In this document: one piece after another, positions 2,243-55,300 of the stretch
How the letters are laid out: the number at the start of each line of letters is the position of its first letter
How positions within the stretch are numbered: the stretch's first letter is position 1
Assembly (NCBI GenBank): GCA_947454955.1
Contig: CANGLW010000003.1
Span: 62,001-126,000, forward strand
Direction: 5' to 3'
DNA from: Comamonadaceae bacterium
GTDB taxonomy: Bacteria; Pseudomonadota; Gammaproteobacteria; Burkholderiales; Burkholderiaceae_C
DNA: 64,000 nt
Translations under genes and position numbers: made by a program
Notes under the pieces: generated by a model
Databases searched by the model: none
Told to the model about the DNA's origin: nothing
Seen by the model: only the letters and a program-made list of their open reading frames with translations

Positions 2243-3660
2243 GCTTTTCCCTCTGCTTTGTTTTCTGCTTTAGTTTTGGTAGCACCAGGCACAGCACCCA
2301 TGCTGCCTGCACCCATACACATCACCACATCCCCAGCACGTGCGTTGTCCACAATGGCTTGCGGCATGGCGGCAATGTCATCCACAAATACCGGTTCAAC
2401 CTTGCCCGCCACCCGCAGTGCGCGCATGAGGGCGCGGCCATCGGCCGCCACAATCGGCGCTTCGCCAGCGGCATAAACCTCGCTGAGCAAGACCGCATCA
2501 GCCTGGCCCATGACACGCACGAAGTCTTCAAAACAATCGCGGGTGCGGGTGTAACGGTGCGGCTGAAAGGCCAGCACCAAACGCTGCCCCGGGAAGGCGC
2601 CACGCGCAGCGGCCAAGGTGGCCGCCATTTCCACCGGGTGGTGGCCGTAGTCGTCAATCAAGGTGAAGGTGCCGCTGCCGTTTTTCACCGGCAGCTCGCC
2701 GTAACGCTGGAAGCGGCGGCCCACCCCTTTGAACTCGGCCAGGGCTTTGAGCAAGGCGGCGTCGTCAACTTCCAACTCGGCAGCCACCGCGATGGCCGAG
2801 AGCGCGTTGAGCACGTTGTGCATGCCAGGCAGGTTGAGCACCACTTCCAGGTCGGGCATGACCACGCCGTTACGGCGCTGCACGGTGAAATGCATTTGCG
2901 CACCCACTGCACGCACGTTCACCGCACGCACTTGCGCTTCGTCGTTCAAGCCGTAGCTGGTGATGGGGCACGACAAATCTTGCGCCACTTCGCGCACCGC
3001 GGCGTCGTCGGTGCACAAAATCGCGGTGCCGTAAAACGGCATGCGGTGCAGGAAATCGACAAACGCTTTTTTGAGCTTGTTGAAATCGTGCCCGTAGGTT
3101 TCCATGTGGTCGGCGTCGATGTTGGTCACCACCGCCATCACCGGCAAGAGGTTGAGGAAAGACGCGTCCGACTCGTCGGCCTCCACCACGATGTAGTCGC
3201 CACTGCCCAGACGCGCATTGGCGCCTGCGCTGTTGAGGCGGCCACCAATCACAAAGGTTGGGTCCAGCCCAGCCTCGCCCAACACGCTGGCCACCAAGCT
3301 GGTGGTGGTGGTTTTGCCGTGGGTGCCGGCAATTGCGATGCCACGCTTGAGGCGCATGAGCTCGGCGAGCATGAGCGCACGCGGCACGATGGGGATGTGC
3401 TTGGCACGCGCCGCCACCACCTCGGGGTTGTCGCTCTTCACCGCTGTGGAGGTGACCACCGCATCGGCACCAGCGATGTTGTCGGGCGTGTGGCCAATGT
3501 GCGTGCGGATGCCCAAAGAGGCCAAACGCTGCAAGGTGGCGCTGTCCGACAGGTCAGAGCCGGAGATGACATAACCCAGGTTGTGCAGCACCTCGGCAAT
3601 GCCCGACATGCCCGAACCACCCAGGCCCACAAAATGGATGTGACGGATGGCGTGCTTCAT
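2239..3660 (-). CDS. murC: UDP-N-acetylmuramate--L-alanine ligase
   Basis: MurC adds L-alanine to UDP-MurNAc, the first amino-acid step of peptidoglycan precursor synthesis. The 473-residue protein has the three Mur-ligase domains: a Rossmann-like UDP-binding domain with [14 protein letters not shown] near the N-terminus, the ATPase P-loop [11 protein letters not shown] (about 111-121), and a C-terminal domain containing the conserved DDYGHHPVE segment. The histidine in the P-loop (GTHGKTT rather than GTNGKTT) is typical of MurC and separates it from MurD/E/F in the same cluster. It overlaps murG and ddl by four bases each. Confidence 0.98.
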
Positions 3661-4736
3661 GCGGCCAACGCCTCGCAGCTGGCCACCACCTCGCGCGTGG
3701 CGTGGGTTTTAGCCAGGCTTTGTGCCTTTTGCGCCCAATTCAAAAGGGTGGCGCGCTCTAAATTCTGCAGCATGTCTGCTAATTTTTCTGAAGTCAAATC
3801 GGCTTGTTGGATCAGCACGCCTGCACCTTGCGACACCAGAAATTGCGCATTGCTGGTTTGGTGGTCGTCCACCGCAAAGGGGAAAGGCACGAACAGGGCC
3901 GGCGCACCCACCGCTGCCAGTTCGGTCACGGTACTGGCACCGGCGCGCGCAATCACCAGATCGGCTTGTGCAAAGGCTTCAGCGGTGTTGGTGATGAAAG
4001 GCGTGAGTTCGGCTTGCACACCTGCAGCTTGGTAGTTGGCGCGCAGGGCGTCGATTTGTTTGGCACCACTTTGGTGGGTGACGATGGGGCGCTGGTCTGC
4101 GCTGATCAGACCTAAGGCAGCGGGCACCACCTCGTTCAACACTTTCGCGCCTAAGCTGCCGCCCACCACCAACACACGCAGAGGACCTGTGCGGCCTGCA
4201 AAGCGCGTGGCCGGGTCGGCCTGATGCAAGAACTCAGCGCGAAGCGGGTTACCCACCCAATGCGCTTTGGGCAGCACATGCGGAAACGCGGTGAACACGC
4301 GGTCAGCCACTTGCGCCAAAATTTTGTTGACCATGCCGGCCACAGAATTTTGCTCATGCAAGATCAGCGGCTTGCCCAGCAACACCGCCATCATGCCGGC
4401 CGGGAAGGTGATGTAGCCGCCCAAGCCCACCACCACATCGGGCTTGACGCGGCGAATGACCGAGATGCTTTGCGCAAAAGCTTTGAGCAAACGCAGGGGC
4501 AAGAAGGCCAAGGTGCTCACGCCCTTGCCACGCACGCCTGAGAAATCAATCGTCTCGAACGCGAAACCTTGCGGGGGCACGAGTTGGCTTTCCATGCTGG
4601 GCGACTCGGCGCTGCCGCGCCCACCCAACCAATGCACGCGCCAGCCTTTGTCGCGCAAGGCGGTTGCCACGGCCAAGCCCGGGAAGATGTGCCCACCCGT
4701 GCCGCCCGCCATGACCAGTGCGCAGGGTTGGGTCAT
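3657..4736 (-). CDS. murG: UDP-GlcNAc:lipid I N-acetylglucosaminyltransferase MurG
   Basis: MurG transfers GlcNAc onto lipid I to form lipid II on the cytoplasmic face of the membrane. The 359-residue product has the N-terminal glycine-rich loop ([17 protein letters not shown]), a second glycine loop ([13 protein letters not shown]) and the GT28 donor-binding region [23 protein letters not shown]...DDHQTSNA. The frame is open to 4826, but the upstream part is the tandem repeat at the ftsW-murG junction. The ATG at 4736, preceded by GGAGG at a good distance and overlapping the last mini-ORF stop as ATGA, is the sensible start. Confidence 0.96.
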
Positions 4737-4822
4737 ACACGTCCTCCGTGCATCAGCCACGTTACTGGCGCAACGTGACGCGCTGCGCGCGTTTGCCCAT
4801 TTTGCAGAAACAAGCAGCTCAT
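4733..4822 (-). CDS. 29-residue mini-ORF B, second 86-bp repeat (ftsW-murG junction)
   Basis: This small reading frame translates as [20 protein letters not shown] then TWLMHGGRV, 29 residues. A GGAGG ribosome-binding site sits six bases before its ATG. Its ATG overlaps the stop of mini-ORF A as ATGA, and its own TGA overlaps the murG ATG in the same way. It differs from mini-ORF A at two residues (PV for SA), and both end in MHGGRV like FtsW itself. Whether it makes a stable peptide, or only passes ribosomes from ftsW to murG, cannot be told from sequence. No known family is recognised. Confidence 0.45.
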   Translation of the reverse strand: MSCLFLQNGQTRAARHVAPVTWLMHGGRV

Positions 4823-4925
4823 ACACGGCCTCCGTGCATCAGCCACGTTGCTGACGCAACGTGGCGCGCTGCGCGCGTTTGCCCATTTTGCAGAAACAGG
4901 CAACTCATACACGGCCTCCGTGCAT
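4734..4925. repeat. Tandem 86-bp repeats between ftsW and murG
   Basis: Two full 86-bp units (4734-4819 and 4820-4905) and a 20-bp third start (4906-4925) begin at the same CATACACG[T/G]CCTCCG word with an exact 86-bp period. The two full units differ at only a few positions. Each unit also holds two internal inverted repeats: CCACGTTG/CAACGTGG at the second unit (4852-4873 region) and GCGCGC-T-GCGCGC. The repeats sit in a cluster where all other junctions are overlapping or nearly so, so they are an insertion or local duplication. Confidence 0.9.
4819..4908 (-). CDS. 29-residue mini-ORF A, first 86-bp repeat (ftsW-murG junction)
   Basis: This frame translates as [20 protein letters not shown] then TWLMHGGRV. 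Its ATG overlaps the ftsW TGA (ATGA), and its TGA overlaps the ATG of mini-ORF B. A GGAGG lies six bases upstream, but that site and the start codon fall inside a predicted 21-bp RNA hairpin. The repeat period of 86 bases equals a 90-base ORF minus a 4-base overlap, so the coupling geometry has been kept in each copy. The function is unknown; the frame may simply be a by-product of duplicating the junction. Confidence 0.45.
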
Positions 4926-4938
4926 GAGTTGCCTGTTT
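4894..4938 (-). promoter_or_regulatory. Long RNA hairpin over the end of ftsW, sequestering a start codon
   Basis: On the minus strand the arms AAACAGGCAACTCAT (4938-4924) and ATGAGTTGCCTGTTT (4908-4894) are exact reverse complements. The intervening bases GCACGG-AGG-CCGTGT extend the stem by six pairs including one G-U, giving 21 pairs with an AGG triloop. GGAGG (4919-4915) lies half in the stem and half in the loop, and the ATG of mini-ORF A is fully paired. Such a stem could restrain translation downstream of ftsW or act as an RNase processing site. That role is inferred. Confidence 0.6.
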
Positions 4939-6161
4939 TCATAATCAACCCTCAAGACCACGGCGATGGCCACCAGGTTCATCAGGATGGCCGAACCGCC
5001 GTAACTCATGAGTGGTAGCGTGAGGCCCTTGGTGGGCAAGGCGCCGAGGTTCACGCCCATGTTGATGAAGGCTTGGAAGCCCACCCAAATGCCCACACCT
5101 TGTGCCACCAGGCCTGCAAAGATGCGGTCCATGGCGATGGCTTGGCGGCCGATGTGCATGATGCGGCGGGTCAGCCATAGAAAGAGGCCAATCACGGTGA
5201 TCACGCCCACCAGGCCGAATTCTTCGCCGATGACGGCGAGCAAAAAGTCGGTGTGCGCTTCGGGCAACCAGTGCAGCTTTTCAATGCTGCCACCCAGGCC
5301 CACACCAAAAATTTCGCCACGGCCAATCGCAATCAGCGAGTGCGAGAGTTGGTAGCCCTTGCCCAGCGCGTGCTTCTCGTCCCAAGGGTCGAGGTAGGCA
5401 AAAATGCGTTCGCGGCGCCATTCGCTGGTCATGATGATCATGCCGAAGGCCAGCACCAGAATCGCGGCGATCAGGAAGAACATGCGGGCGTTCACGCCAC
5501 CCAGAAACAAGATGCCCATGGCGATCACCGCGATCACCAAGAAGGCACCCATGTCAGGCTCGGCCAGCAAGAGCGAACCCACCAGAGCCACAGCCACGCC
5601 CATGGGCAGCACGGCGCGGAAGAAGCGCTCTTTGACTTCCATCTTGCGCACCATGTAGTCCGAGGCGTAAATGAGGACTGCGAACTTGGCAAGTTCTGAG
5701 GGCTGGAAGTTCATGATGCCCAGCGAGATCCAGCGGCGCGCACCGTTCACACCTTTGCCAATCACCGGGATCAGCACCACCACCAGCAACAAGATGGAGG
5801 CCACGAACAACCAGGGCGCCATTTTTTCCCAGGTCTTGATGGGCACCTGAAACGCCAACAAAGCACCAATGAAAGCCACCACCAGCGAGAGCATGTGGCG
5901 GGTCAGGAAGTGGGTGTGGGCGTAGCGCGCGAACTTGGGGTTGTCGGGCATCGCGATCGATGCGGAATACACCATCACCATGCCCCAGGCCAGGAGTGCG
6001 ACCACCACCCAGATGAGGGTCTGGTCAAAGCCCAGCACGCGGTTGGGACGCACGGTGGTGCTGCCGTAATCGTTACCCAGGCGCACCGGCAGCACGTCTT
6101 GCGCGGCCTCGGTGGCACGGCCAAACCAGCCTTTGATGTTGGGCAGGCTCAGCGCGCTCAT
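4905..6161 (-). CDS. ftsW: Lipid II-linked peptidoglycan polymerase FtsW (SEDS family)
   Basis: FtsW is the septal SEDS glycosyltransferase that works with FtsI. The 418-residue protein has about ten hydrophobic segments and the SEDS signatures [17 protein letters not shown], the acidic loop segment [20 protein letters not shown], and the C-terminal [20 protein letters not shown]. It overlaps the murD stop by four bases. Its last residues (RQLMHGGRV) and stop codon lie inside the tandem repeat, so the extreme C-terminus may have been rewritten by the repeat. The catalytic core looks intact. Confidence 0.97.
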
Positions 6162-15772: not shown

Positions 15773-17116
15773 TCAATCCCCAAACATCTTCTGTTTGAGC
15801 TCACGGCGCTGCTGCGCTTCGAGCGACAAGGTAGCCGTAGGACGGGCCAGCAAGCGGCCCACACCGATGGGCTCACCGGTCTCGTCGCAGTAGCCGTAGT
15901 CACCGCCGTCAATGCGGCTGATGGACTGCTCGATTTTCTTGAGCAATTTACGCTCGCGGTCGCGGGTGCGCAGCTCCAGGGCGTGCTCTTCTTCAATCGT
16001 GGCGCGGTCGGCCGGGTCAGGCACCACCACGGTGTCTTCGCGCAGGTGCTCGGTGGTTTCACCGGCGTTGGCCAAGATGTCGTTCTTGAGCTGCACCAGG
16101 CGGTGACGGAACGCAGCGAGTTGCTTGTCGTTCATGTACTCGTCGTCGGGCATGGCCATCAGCTCCGCATCGCTGAGTTTGTCAGCGGGCGTGGTTTTCC
16201 AGTTGTTGGCCAATTTGGGGTCTTTTTTGATGCTGGATGGCAAGGGCGGGGCAATCATGGGGTTCGATTCAATCTGGGCGTAACTGGCCTTAGCGGCGGT
16301 GGAGGCCACCGACTGCGCCATGGACGGTACGGTCAGGGACGCCAGCCGTGACGACGGGCGACCCGCACGCGGGATGCCCCCCGAGGAGGCGGTACCGATG
16401 GGCATGAGCACAGGCGAGCCAGTGGCCACTTTAGCGGGGGCGGCTGCAGGCGTTGCAGCTTTTTCAGCCGGTTTTGCCGCGCTTTTCGCAGCTTCTTTCC
16501 CAGCGGCTTTGGCTGGTGCGGCAGCTGAGGCCAGTTTCAAGGCGGGTTGAGCCGCGGTTTTGGCCACTGGTTTGGCAGGGGCGGCCGCTGGCTTCTTGGC
16601 AAGAGCTTTCACAGTTTCTTTCACAACAGCTTTGGGGGCTGATTTGGACGGCGCTTTGGCCGCCACTTTGACAGGGGCCTTGGCAGCTGGTTTGACAACG
16701 GGCTTGGCCGCGGCTTTCACAACTGCTTTGACGGGGGCTTTCACCGGCGATTTCACCGGGGCTTTGGATTTAGGCGCCACTTTGGCTTTGACCGGTGCAG
16801 GCTTGGCTTTCACCGCCGACTTCACCACCGTTTTCACCCCTGGCTTGGCTGCTGTGGTGCCCTTGGCTTTGACAGCCGTTTTCACGGGCGCTTTAACTGC
16901 GGCCTTTGCGGGGGCCTTAGCGGGTGGCTTCGTGGGTGATTTCACAGAAGCCTTAGCCGCTGGTTTCGCAGCGACTTTGGGCTTAGCCACGGGCTTGGCC
17001 GCAGGTTTGGCAAGAGGTTTTTTGGCGGTCGCCTTCGCTTGGCCCGTCACCAACTTGACGGGTTTGGCAGAAGACTTCTTCGCAAGTGCTGCTTTGGTTT
17101 TGGCTTGGGTCGACAC
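15773..17116 (-). CDS. DksA/TraR-type RNA polymerase-binding protein with histone-H1-like N-terminus
   Basis: The last 136 or so residues are a DksA homologue: a coiled-coil region (DKQLAAFRHRLVQLKNDIL...) and a finger region (DGGDYGYCDETGEPIGVGRL). DksA binds the RNA polymerase secondary channel and works with ppGpp. Only the first of the four usual zinc cysteines remains; the others read Thr, Ser and Ala, so zinc-independent folding is likely. Residues 1 to about 235 are Lys/Ala/Pro-rich repeats (AKPAAKPVAKP-like), resembling histone H1 or AlgP tails and probably able to bind nucleic acid. I prefer the GTG at 17116, six bases after GAGGAGAG, over the GTG at 17122. Confidence 0.85.
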   Translation of the reverse strand: MSTQAKTKAALAKKSSAKPVKLVTGQAKATAKKPLAKPAAKPVAKPKVAAKPAAKASVKSPTKPPAKAPAKAAVKAPVKTAVKAKGTTAAKPGVKTVVKSAVKAKPAPVKAKVAPKSKAPVKSPVKAPVKAVVKAAAKPVVKPAAKAPVKVAAKAPSKSAPKAVVKETVKALAKKPAAAPAKPVAKTAAQPALKLASAAAPAKAAGKEAAKSAAKPAEKAATPAAAPAKVATGSPVLMPIGTASSGGIPRAGRPSSRLASLTVPSMAQSVASTAAKASYAQIESNPMIAPPLPSSIKKDPKLANNWKTTPADKLSDAELMAMPDDEYMNDKQLAAFRHRLVQLKNDILANAGETTEHLREDTVVVPDPADRATIEEEHALELRTRDRERKLLKKIEQSISRIDGGDYGYCDETGEPIGVGRLLARPTATLSLEAQQRRELKQKMFGD

Positions 17117-52340: not shown

Positions 52341-55300
52341 ATGAACATCACGAGTTTCAAATCTTATTCGCCCAGTGACATGGCCAATTTGGCCGCCAGC
52401 GATCTGGCCAATGTGACGGCCGATGTGGCCAAAGGTTTGTCAAGCAACCAAATTCAAGCCCTGCAAAGCGATCAGGTGGCCGCCCTGTCTGGCGTGATTT
52501 TCAGTTTGAGCTCGCAGCAGATTGCAGCCTTCACGCCTTACCAGATCGAGTCAGGCTTGAGCACGGCCTCCATCGCGCAAGCCAGTGGCAAACAACTGCA
52601 GTCTTTGAGCAATTCGCAAGTGCAGGCCATGAGCGTGGACCAGATCAACGCCATCACCGACAGCAGCTTCAAAGATTTGACGGTCTCACAGGTCAAGGCC
52701 TTAACGGCCGATCAGCTCTTGGGCATGGATGCAGCGCAAATGAGCCAGATGAGCGTTCAGCAAGTCACCTCGCTCTCAGGCGAGCAGCTCGATGCGATTG
52801 GCAACTTGGGCAACAACATCAAGAACCTCTCGATCGCACAGTTCACGGCCTTGACCGATGCGCAAGTGGCCAGCATCGACCCGAGCCAAATCTCTCAAAT
52901 CACCCTGGCGCAATTGGGCACCTTGGGCGACCGGGTGAACCTGCTCAACGAAGACCAGGTGGCCCAGCTCAGCGCCTCGCAAACGCGCAGCCTGAGCGCA
53001 TCACAACTGACGGCTTTGGACACCGCAGGCACCTTGGCTGCCCTGTCGAACACCGCGGTGGCGGCCTTGCAAAAAACACAGCTGGCTGGCTTTGCCGGTG
53101 TGAGCCACATGACCGAAGCGCAACTGGGCGCCTTGTCTGGCAGCCAGGTGGGCTGGCTCTCGGCCACACAACTCAATGCCCTTAGCACCGACCAGGTGAG
53201 CGCTCTGAGCGCAGCGGGCGTTGGCAAGATCGCCAAAGACCAAGTGGCCAGTTTGTCCACCGCGTTTGTGGGCGCCTTGAGCACCACCCAAGTGGCCAAG
53301 TTCACCGCACCGCAGGTGAGCCAGCTCACCGCCGGACAACTGCAGGTGCTGGGCAATGAGCAGATCAGCAGCCTCTCCAGCAGCGCGGTGGGTGCATTGA
53401 CAGCCACACAAATAGACAGCCTGAGCGACACACAAATTCAAAGCCTGAGCGCCGGTCAAGCGGAGAAGCTTTCACGCGCAGCCATCGAATCGCTCAACGC
53501 CACGCAAGTGGGCAGCCTGACCTACGAATCGCTGGCCAAAGTGGCCAGCAAGCTCAAGGTCAACGCGGGTGGCAGCGTGAACCAGATCGCGGCACTCACC
53601 AACGATCAGGTGCAAAGCCTGAGCTATGGCAAGGTGGTCAACGGCGTGGCTGGGCCGAATGTGATTGGCAGTTTCACGGGCGCGCAAATCGCAGCCTTGG
53701 GCAGCAAGATTCAATCGTTCTCAACCGACCAGATGGGCGCCCTGACGCTCAATCAGGTCAAGGCCTTGACCACCGGCAACGGCGGCCAAATCGCCAGCTT
53801 AGACATCGACCAGATCGCAGCCATCAAGCCCGCTGCAGCGCGTGGTTTTACCGCCAGCCAAATTGCTCAGATGACCGCGCCTCAAGTGCGTGGTCTTTTG
53901 AGTGCTTCGACGGTGAACGGCAGCTCGCAATTGAGCAACACCCAACTTGCGGCCATCGACAAAGCGTTGATTGGCGTGCTGGACATGGGCACCTTGAGCA
54001 CCACCCAACTCAAAGCCTTGACGGGTGACCAAGTGGGCAAGCTCAGCAATGCGCAGCTTGGGCAACTCAGCACCGGCAACGCCGGCCAAATGCGTGCGCT
54101 CACCAGCACGCAACTGCAAAGCCTGAGCGCTGACCAGATCCGCGCTTTGGGTGATGCGCAAGTGGCTGACCTGAGCGACACCCAAGTACGCGCCTTCACC
54201 ACCACCCAAGTGCAAGCGCTTGAAGCCGCTGATGTGACGGCCCAGGGTGGCAACCTCACCGCCACCCAAACCCAAAGCCTGAGCGCCACACAAATCCAAG
54301 GCATCGGCACGGGCAACGGGCAATTGGGCGTGTTCACCAACGCGCAACTGCGCAACCTCACCAACACCCAAGTGCAAGCCCTGACCTACCAGCAAGTGGC
54401 GGGCTTGAGCAGTTCACAAATCCAGCAGTTCAGCGCGCAGCAGTTGGGCAACTTGAGCGCTGGCCAGGTGGCTGCGCTTGAAACCAGCGATGTCAGCAGC
54501 CTGCAGGTCAGCCAGGTGCGCGGCTTGCTCAGCACGCAGATGCAGGTCATGTCGTCTGCCCAAGTGCAGGCGCTGAGCACCGAGCAATTGCAGTCCTTGG
54601 ACAACAGCCAACTTGCCGCCATCTTGCCCAAGCTCTCGGCCACGCAGAACAACAACCAATTCGGCGCCTTGAGCAAATCACAGTTTGCCAACTTGACCGC
54701 CACGCAACTGAGCACTCTGAACAACGCGCAAATTGGCAAGCTCTCCACCGAGCAGATCCAATCGCTCAGCGGCGCACAACTCGGCGCCATCAGCATTCTG
54801 AGTGCCGACCAAACCAAGCTGCTCAGCGCTGCGCAACTGGCCGACAGCGACGCCAACCTGGGCTCGTTGACCTATGCCCAGGTCAACGCCTTGACCGACT
54901 TGCAAATCCAATCACTGAGCAGCAGCAAGCTGGGCGACATCGCCGTCAAAATGAGTGGCGCACAAATCGCTAACCTCAGCCCCGACCAGGTCTCGGGTTT
55001 GTCGATGTCCCAGCTCAACAACGGCCAGGTCGCGGCCTTGGGCGATGCCCAGTTGGCCATCCTCAGCAGCACACAGTTGACCGATTTGGGTGAGCGCGTG
55101 TCACGCATTTCCGCAGCCCATTTGGCCACCTTGGCGCCGCAACAAGTTGCAGCCCTCGACACCACGCAAATCACCGCGTTCACGGTGGACCAGGTCTCGG
55201 CGTTGACCGAACCGCAGTTGCGCAGCTTGAGCAACTCGCAAGTTCAAGCGCTGGTGTTCACCAACGGCAGCAACGACAACCAAATGACCGCACTTCGCCC

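Follow-up and report, generated by a model that had tools for sequence, protein, structure and literature searches.

Two 86-bp direct repeats separate the cell-wall genes ftsW and murG on the minus strand of a 64,000-nucleotide stretch from a freshwater bacterium of the Comamonadaceae (GenBank assembly GCA_947454955.1, contig CANGLW010000003.1, positions 62,001 to 126,000), from now on referred to as the window. We propose, with a probability of about 0.57, that the repeat unit is a worn, core-less member of a dispersed repeat family whose copies carry duplicates of the tail of their host gene, and that it is tolerated because the coupling of ftsW to murG is preserved.

The repeat array in the window

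Tandem Repeats Finder reports a single array at 4733-4925 (period 86, 2.2 copies, 94% matches) with a score of 344, the next-best tandem repeat in the window reaching 73. A separate repeat search returned two copies of 86 nt that are 93% identical, at 4733-4904, and a third, partial copy at 4905-4928. The units, their coordinates and their period are thus as given in a preliminary description of this DNA. Translation likewise reproduced its two 29-codon frames, linked by ATGA overlaps to ftsW, to each other and to murG, and their peptides, which are alike except for two residues (SA/PV) and share with FtsW the ending MHGGRV; Pfam agrees with the names of the two flanking genes. The features of the junction, all on the minus strand, are as follows.

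4905-6161, minus: ftsW (translation; Pfam FTSW_RODA_SPOVE, PF01098, E 2.6e-102); its last codons are the copied "tail" (translation), with region 1 within 4918-4938
4918-4938, minus: region 1, 5' arm of the long hairpin, within ftsW (repeat search)
4915-4919, minus: Shine-Dalgarno-like GGAGG, in and beside the loop of the long hairpin (sequence reading)
4894-4914, minus: region 2, 3' arm of the long hairpin, containing the start codon of mini-ORF A (repeat search, fold, covariation)
4819-4904, minus: unit 1, ftsW side, 86 bp (Tandem Repeats Finder and repeat search)
4819-4908, minus: mini-ORF (open reading frame) A, 29 codons, ATGA overlaps with ftsW and mini-ORF B (translation)
4880-4890, minus: region 3 of unit 1, a diverged direct copy of the ftsW tail, ENRQ to QNGQ (sequence reading and cross-species comparison)
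4865-4877, minus: small hairpin CGCGC-GCA-GCGCG of unit 1 (sequence reading; helix 2 of the genus model)
4842-4865, minus: third hairpin of unit 1, 10-bp stem and GTCA loop, with covarying pairs in the genus (sequence reading; helix 3 of the genus model)
4819-4842, minus: second half of the tail copy of unit 1, with GGAGG at 4829-4833 and the ATGA for mini-ORF B (24-nt repeat family D2)
4733-4818, minus: unit 2, murG side, 86 bp, 93% identical to unit 1 (Tandem Repeats Finder and repeat search)
4733-4822, minus: mini-ORF B, 29 codons, ATGA overlaps with mini-ORF A and murG (translation)
4794-4804, minus: region 3 of unit 2 (sequence reading)
4733-4756, minus: second half of the tail copy of unit 2, with GGAGG at 4743-4747 and the ATGA for murG (24-nt repeat family D2)
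3657-4736, minus: murG (translation; Pfam PF03033, Glyco_transf_28, and PF04101, Glyco_tran_28_C), its start codon in the final ATGA overlap of the array

Each unit consists of an inverted copy of the ftsW tail and a direct copy that provides the start signal of the next frame. At the end of ftsW, regions 1 and 2 make up an inverted repeat of 21 nt, 95% complementary with 3 nt between the arms. Folded as DNA, this long hairpin reaches -23.3 kcal/mol compared with -5.5 in shuffles (z -9.4), and the entire junction folded as RNA gives a z of -7.0. Neither the hairpin nor the dispersed relatives treated below were part of the preliminary description. A scan of 4500-5300 found no promoter or intrinsic terminator in the insert, the sole terminator-like site lying inside murG at chance level. 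Rfam yielded no match at gathering score for two sets of 6 and 8 loci, Pfam none for the 29-residue peptide, and a BLAST search of the bacterium's own genome matched this locus only.

Anatomy, reading chain and distribution at ftsW-murG junctions

Junctions of relatives were read by script at 170 loci, with genomes and loci labelled by G- and L-numbers in this analysis. The sample is non-random, being made up of 26 genus members, matches to a covariance model built from 11 first units of the genus (R1) and genomes chosen as nearest by MurG; of the 150 listed matches, 23 were not fetched into it. The pairing count omits six junctions whose tail has another length, and two loci at contig ends were skipped. 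It should be noted that neither related genomes nor the copies of one array count as independent. The remaining 164 junctions share a 36-nt tail, and 93 of them are insert-free while 71 carry an insert.

A three-part layout recurs in the inserts. The ftsW tail itself is region 1; past the stop codon come its reverse complement, region 2, and a direct copy, region 3, which reads as QNRH or QNRQ for ENRQ, QNRT for ENRT and QNKL for ENKL. In 42 of the 71 inserts (type A), which come from 22 genera, at least 8 of the 11 outer positions of regions 1 and 2 pair in a fixed register. Type B inserts, seen in several other genomes, have the complement farther downstream, with a complete tail copy after it; at some of these loci, for example L217 and L223, sequence reading finds the long complement scarce or gone. 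The two arms are diverse, with 28 distinct region-1 and 30 distinct region-2 sequences, and they covary across the 22 genera. Mean outer pairing is 10.6 for a region 2 with its own region 1 compared with 8.0 across genera, and 92 of 93 insert-free junctions have 7 pairs or fewer. When one insert per genus was permuted, none of 20000 permutations reached the observed 10.36 Watson-Crick pairs (mean 7.10, highest 8.36), a test that is generous because the type A set was partly chosen by pairing. All 11 outer pairs are Watson-Crick in 27 of the 42 type A inserts, and the 462 cells of the stem comprise 441 Watson-Crick, 5 G.T, 5 A.C and 11 other combinations. Region 1 is matched better by region 2 than by region 3 at 35 of 40 loci, worse at 3 and equally at 2. 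The fit to region 1 is poorer for unit 2, which does not adjoin it, in G000, G013 and G021; G010 is an exception. In the genus alignment, three measures exceed all 500 shuffles, namely the covariation score and the counts of paired and of doubly changed cells; two others are not clearly above them, the number of doubly changed pairs (28 of 500) and that of additional pair types (196 of 500).

The preliminary description had proposed that translation could pass without a break from ftsW through the mini-ORFs to murG, and this continuity holds in relatives. Following the frame from the ftsW stop codon through every 4-nt overlap, the murG frame is reached from 40 of the 42 type A inserts, from 15 of the 16 of type B and from all 14 of the others; six of these 14 have a first frame that continues into murG as a fused extension. 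Of the three failures, L072 reflects a contig end and two are real (L045 in G004 and L223 in G318). With L072 excluded, 69 of the 71 family inserts have an intact chain, compared with an expected 35.3 if the middle is shuffled at constant length or 26.2 if the frame is free. All 98 insert-free family junctions have an in-frame 4-nt overlap, and further junctions outside the 71 are intact in 22 of 24 cases (15 of 15 in the family, 7 of 9 at order level). The open chain is thus kept far above chance, and the peptide carries no coding signal: differences at codon positions 1, 2 and 3 within codons 9-22 number 429, 334 and 395 (12 genus units, 66 pairs, ungapped). Because the chain is intact and third positions show no excess, the sequences suggest that ribosome passage is kept and the peptide is not. 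A new small-protein gene, also raised in the preliminary description, was rejected on these counts and on the frame shifts between 86- and 87-nt units, which create two frames or one fused frame within the genus. That account as a whole is therefore partly supported.

The unit is conserved in relatives, as that account expected. In the genus 12 of 26 genomes carry it at the junction: six have one (G001, G014, G019, G020, G022 and G024), five have two (G000, G004, G010, G013 and G021) and one, G002, has at least two, its contigs ending inside the array. Among the 14 genomes without it, G003 and G023 have other inserts. Three-unit arrays are found in G130 and G404, so that the range among relatives is 0 to 3. 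Assemblies break inside the array at L012, L018 and L043 (G002) and at L072 and L208 (G165), the latter two showing one side each, and unit numbers in drafts are therefore lower bounds. On a MurG tree of 25 genus members and two outgroup rows (G009, with a partial sequence, was left out), unit presence requires 8 changes (at least 5 if only supported branches are counted), and 210 of 500 label shuffles are as low. Since shuffled labels do as well, the unit appears to be gained and lost frequently, and the occurrence of near relatives with and without it argues against an essential role. For possible tail swapping on gain of a unit, near relatives were compared over the last 36 nt of ftsW: pairs with and without the unit differ by 1-7 nt and pairs of equal state by 6 and 7.

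At E <= 0.001, R1 matches 98 of 399 family genomes and 57 of 141 genera, 281 of the genomes with no R1 match being known from the tally only. At order level 14 of 399 genomes match, in a sample that again includes the bacterium's own genome and other family members. Of 80 matches from both levels whose surroundings were read, 74 lie at ftsW-murG and six elsewhere (L236, L238, L244, L253, L256 and L257). Weak junction matches such as L239, L242 and L249 consist of the short start-site palindrome only and have no insert. A pattern scan of contigs gave 27 loci, 18 with the ftsW tail or murG alongside; the nine with neither look like chance.

Some junctions hold inserts of other kinds. A different palindromic insert, its palindrome resembling CCCCCTTGGGGGGCAGCG, occupies those of G160, G029, G278, G228 and G149 (L166, L201, L161, L146 and L252) and reads in frame as an N-terminal extension of murG, which in L166 and L201 resembles ARPPEGAKAPLGGSEDTPVPSVGA. 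Unrelated inserts of 187 and 175 nt (L032 in G023 and L172 in G059) also have a mini-ORF open to the murG ATGA. A second, split murG match on contig C26 of G014 (L048 and L050) may be a contaminant or a broken copy.

Dispersed cores and their host-derived flanks

Order-level junction inserts contain a core, CGGCGNAGGCTNA - hairpins - GCCGNAGCCANAA, which is 43-66 nt long in inspected copies and has GNA motifs at both ends; the third-from-last base pattern of the core, GNA, varies. Strict matches to the core were found in 40 of 300 Burkholderiales genomes and 28 of 135 genera, with at most nine copies in any one genome. A reversed control of the pattern gave none among the matches listed, and for a shorter core pattern there was one control match in 20 genomes. 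In eight families besides that of the window (f6, f8, f10, f21, f25, f26, f30 and f44) ftsW is followed by core-type inserts, and murG was read directly downstream of the insert in all of these except f26, that is in seven of eight.

The cores bear flanks derived from their host genes. For 46 copies from the loci of both core-pattern searches, a reverse complement of the 5' flank was sought upstream, together with a direct copy of the 3' flank; 15 of these copies lie at ftsW, counting L264/L267 and L265/L268 twice, and the 31 others are free of duplicates. Among these 31 copies (27 loci) the inverted copy is present in 23, the direct copy in 23, both in 16 and either in 30 (each p <= 0.02 by shuffling), compared with 6, 19, 2 and 23 of 233 random sites in the same loci. 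In 32 non-ftsW copies, region 2 has on average 10.2 of 12 Watson-Crick matches with region 1 and region 3 has 8.2 of 12 with region 2, figures that the best-placement step biases upwards, in favour of 1:2. The 1:2 stem of the better-matched dispersed copies contains 8 G.T, 4 A.C and 15 other cells.

NCBIfam named the upstream gene at 17 of the 27 non-ftsW loci, with matches running to or near the profile ends, and the copies follow housekeeping genes: ornithine carbamoyltransferase argF at three loci (L259, L271 and L286); glyceraldehyde-3-phosphate dehydrogenase gapA (L280 and L288), ribonucleotide reductase alpha nrdA (L284 and L299) and glutamate 5-kinase proB (L273 and L283) at two each; and mraY, metK, pilT (PilT-family ATPase), acs (acetate-CoA ligase), glmS, serS, pyk (pyruvate kinase) and dnaJ at one each. 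Sequence reading places copies from different families at the same codons of the same gene. In gapA arrays, such as those of G447 and G695, the host tail lies between the cores with a period of 143, and within one genus gapA is followed by cores at two of nine readable loci and has a plain tail at the other seven. A plasmid collection contained no match to one 200-base core-bearing stretch of G660. At L270 (G673), in a gene tail that we take to be ccmE, and at the ftsW of the same genome (L264 and L267), two successive cores have different hairpins, as if insertions were stacked. The core copy at L258 (G355) lies within a gene, presumably an RND efflux transporter, whose frame appears interrupted upstream of the core.

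Origin of the window unit and alternative explanations

The window unit shares its place, its three-part layout and its habit of tandem growth with the core-bearing members. It has the inverted copy of the start of the host sequence 5' of the core position (region 2) and the direct copy of the gene end (the D2 repeat and the diverged region 3), and it is inserted at the E-N codons of the ftsW tail, as they are. At the same ftsW site, other genomes have the full core or its nine-base remnant GGCGCAGCC (L213, L215 and L217), and because both forms occur there, a wearing-down series from core to core-less unit is plausible.

Several observations weigh against the proposed explanation. The core patterns CGGCGNAGGCTNA...GCCGNAGCCANAA and their shorter form have no match in the window's genome, and the unit itself is core-less, with only two bases between GTTTC and CAAAA (GTTTC-TG-CAAAA); in that genome GTTTCNNCAAAAY is confined to the two units and a single further place (L303, contig C80 of G000). 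The case for descent therefore depends on position and layout, together with intermediate forms. The two hairpins within the window's tail copy have no recognized counterpart in the dispersed core, and no movement of the repeat was seen directly. The reading chain is broken not only in G004 (L045) and G318 (L223) but also at two order-level junctions, one with an insert (L232) and one without (L233). Finally, region 1 is matched at 263 of 280 positions by region 2 and at 186 of 280 by region 3; the 1:2 match has been kept while region 3 diverged, which the ageing of two neutral copies does not explain.

We hypothesize that a core-bearing repeat at a gene end, flanked by copies of the tail of its host gene, was ancestral to the window unit. 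At ftsW it would have left the tail (region 1), the inverted tail (region 2), a core since lost and the direct tail (region 3 with the Shine-Dalgarno/ATGA half). Since GGAGG...ATGA closes the copied tail, a short stop/start-coupled frame would arise from an insertion or an extra copy, and selection would keep the ribosome relay open rather than the peptide. Unit number may shift when direct copies recombine, and also through gain or transfer. The hairpin of regions 1 and 2 would mask the first mini-ORF's ATG and Shine-Dalgarno site, leaving its opening mainly to ribosomes arriving from ftsW; the array, or its unit number, may affect the amount of MurG. Flank copying can be sketched as synthesis primed at an ANAAY target that would copy the core and, ahead of joining, fold back onto the target strand and follow it, with X - X1(reverse) - core - X as the product. 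A wider proposal, which we consider tentative and short of an even chance, is that such small elements write their arms from the host gene, with the start of the target inverted, its tail direct and the whole gene end left, that the hairpin over the stop codon is kept as a translation sensor, and that the ftsW-murG case is a relay of disposable mini-ORFs.

The close match of regions 1 and 2 admits two further explanations, both compatible with a worn member of the dispersed family. Upkeep at the DNA level, in which hairpin-templated (quasi-palindrome) copying during replication would perfect the inverted repeat without functional selection, is the less doubtful of the two, though we consider it somewhat unlikely. 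The absence of a wobble excess at ftsW speaks for such copying or repair and against plain selection on an RNA helix, and the fully Watson-Crick outer pairs of most type A inserts, as well as the poorer fit of unit 2 in three of the four two-unit genomes compared, point the same way. Its weakness lies at the dispersed loci, where regions 1 and 2 are well matched in many copies despite arms 60-110 nt apart, and where there is a small G.T excess. A cis-regulatory RNA is unlikely. Here region 2 would pair with region 1 or region 3 in an attenuator-like switch set by ribosomes finishing ftsW, which would determine access to the relay start and thereby to MurG. The covariation across genera, the position of the Shine-Dalgarno site and ATG inside the hairpin and the closer fit of region 2 to region 1 at most loci would all be expected of it. 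The dispersed copies, too, keep 1:2 better than 2:3 and have more G.T than A.C cells, but their placement step favours 1:2. Selection on an RNA helix should also favour G.U, whereas G.T and A.C cells are equal at ftsW, two of the five genus covariation measures do not clearly exceed shuffles, and presence of the unit is scattered among close relatives.

A plain tandem duplication of the junction, unrelated to the dispersed elements and kept because it is harmless, would agree with the lack of a core and of a second place in the own genome by BLAST. However, duplication would give no inverted copy, and the same three-part layout occurs with a core in other families at ftsW and at other gene ends, which makes this origin improbable. 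That the mini-ORFs encode a real 29-residue protein is very improbable: the frame is open in nearly all units, but the relay explains this openness, and the codon-position counts, the frame shifts and the Pfam search give the peptide no support.

As a small, dispersed and structured repeat at gene 3' ends, the family treated here resembles the REP and BIME repeats (GTAG and CGTC families), which are often clustered, lie near the 3' end of the upstream gene and are sometimes found in ORFs (PMC3733652). The accessible part of that article (PMC3733652) describes no inverted and direct copies of the host gene end, whereas the arms found here follow the host gene. High copy number also sets REP and BIME repeats apart from the ftsW unit, which has one place in its own genome. 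Rickettsia palindromic elements are described in the same part as palindromic inserts inside ORFs (PMC3733652). The ftsW unit differs from them in making a separate coupled mini-ORF and in its apparently host-derived arms. The Rickettsia elements lie inside proteins.

Termination-reinitiation pairs have an ATGA stop/start overlap and, within the gene upstream, a Shine-Dalgarno-like site, at least as outlined in the accessible portion of PMC6728339, and the ftsW-murG array likewise has the ATGA overlap in frame with the next gene. Unlike plain coupled pairs, it appears to insert one or more disposable mini-ORFs into the relay. In attenuators, three segments form mutually exclusive 1:2 or 2:3 hairpins between which ribosome position could choose. 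The ftsW array would differ in that segment 1 is the end of a full gene and no leader peptide with control codons was seen. No description of the ftsW-murG repeat or of repeats with host-copied arms was found in the literature searched, which is weak evidence of novelty as most subscription journals lay outside coverage.

If the proposed origin is correct, a local oddity would become a testable class of bacterial repeats with host-templated arms, and ftsW-murG junctions with 0, 1, 2 and 3 units, with and without core, would offer a natural series for the strictness of FtsW/MurG coupling. For annotation, caution is advisable, as such mini-ORFs resemble relays and not genes and some assemblies break in the arrays. 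Tandem Repeats Finder lists other short tandem repeats of the window at 16656-16765 and 53405-53451.

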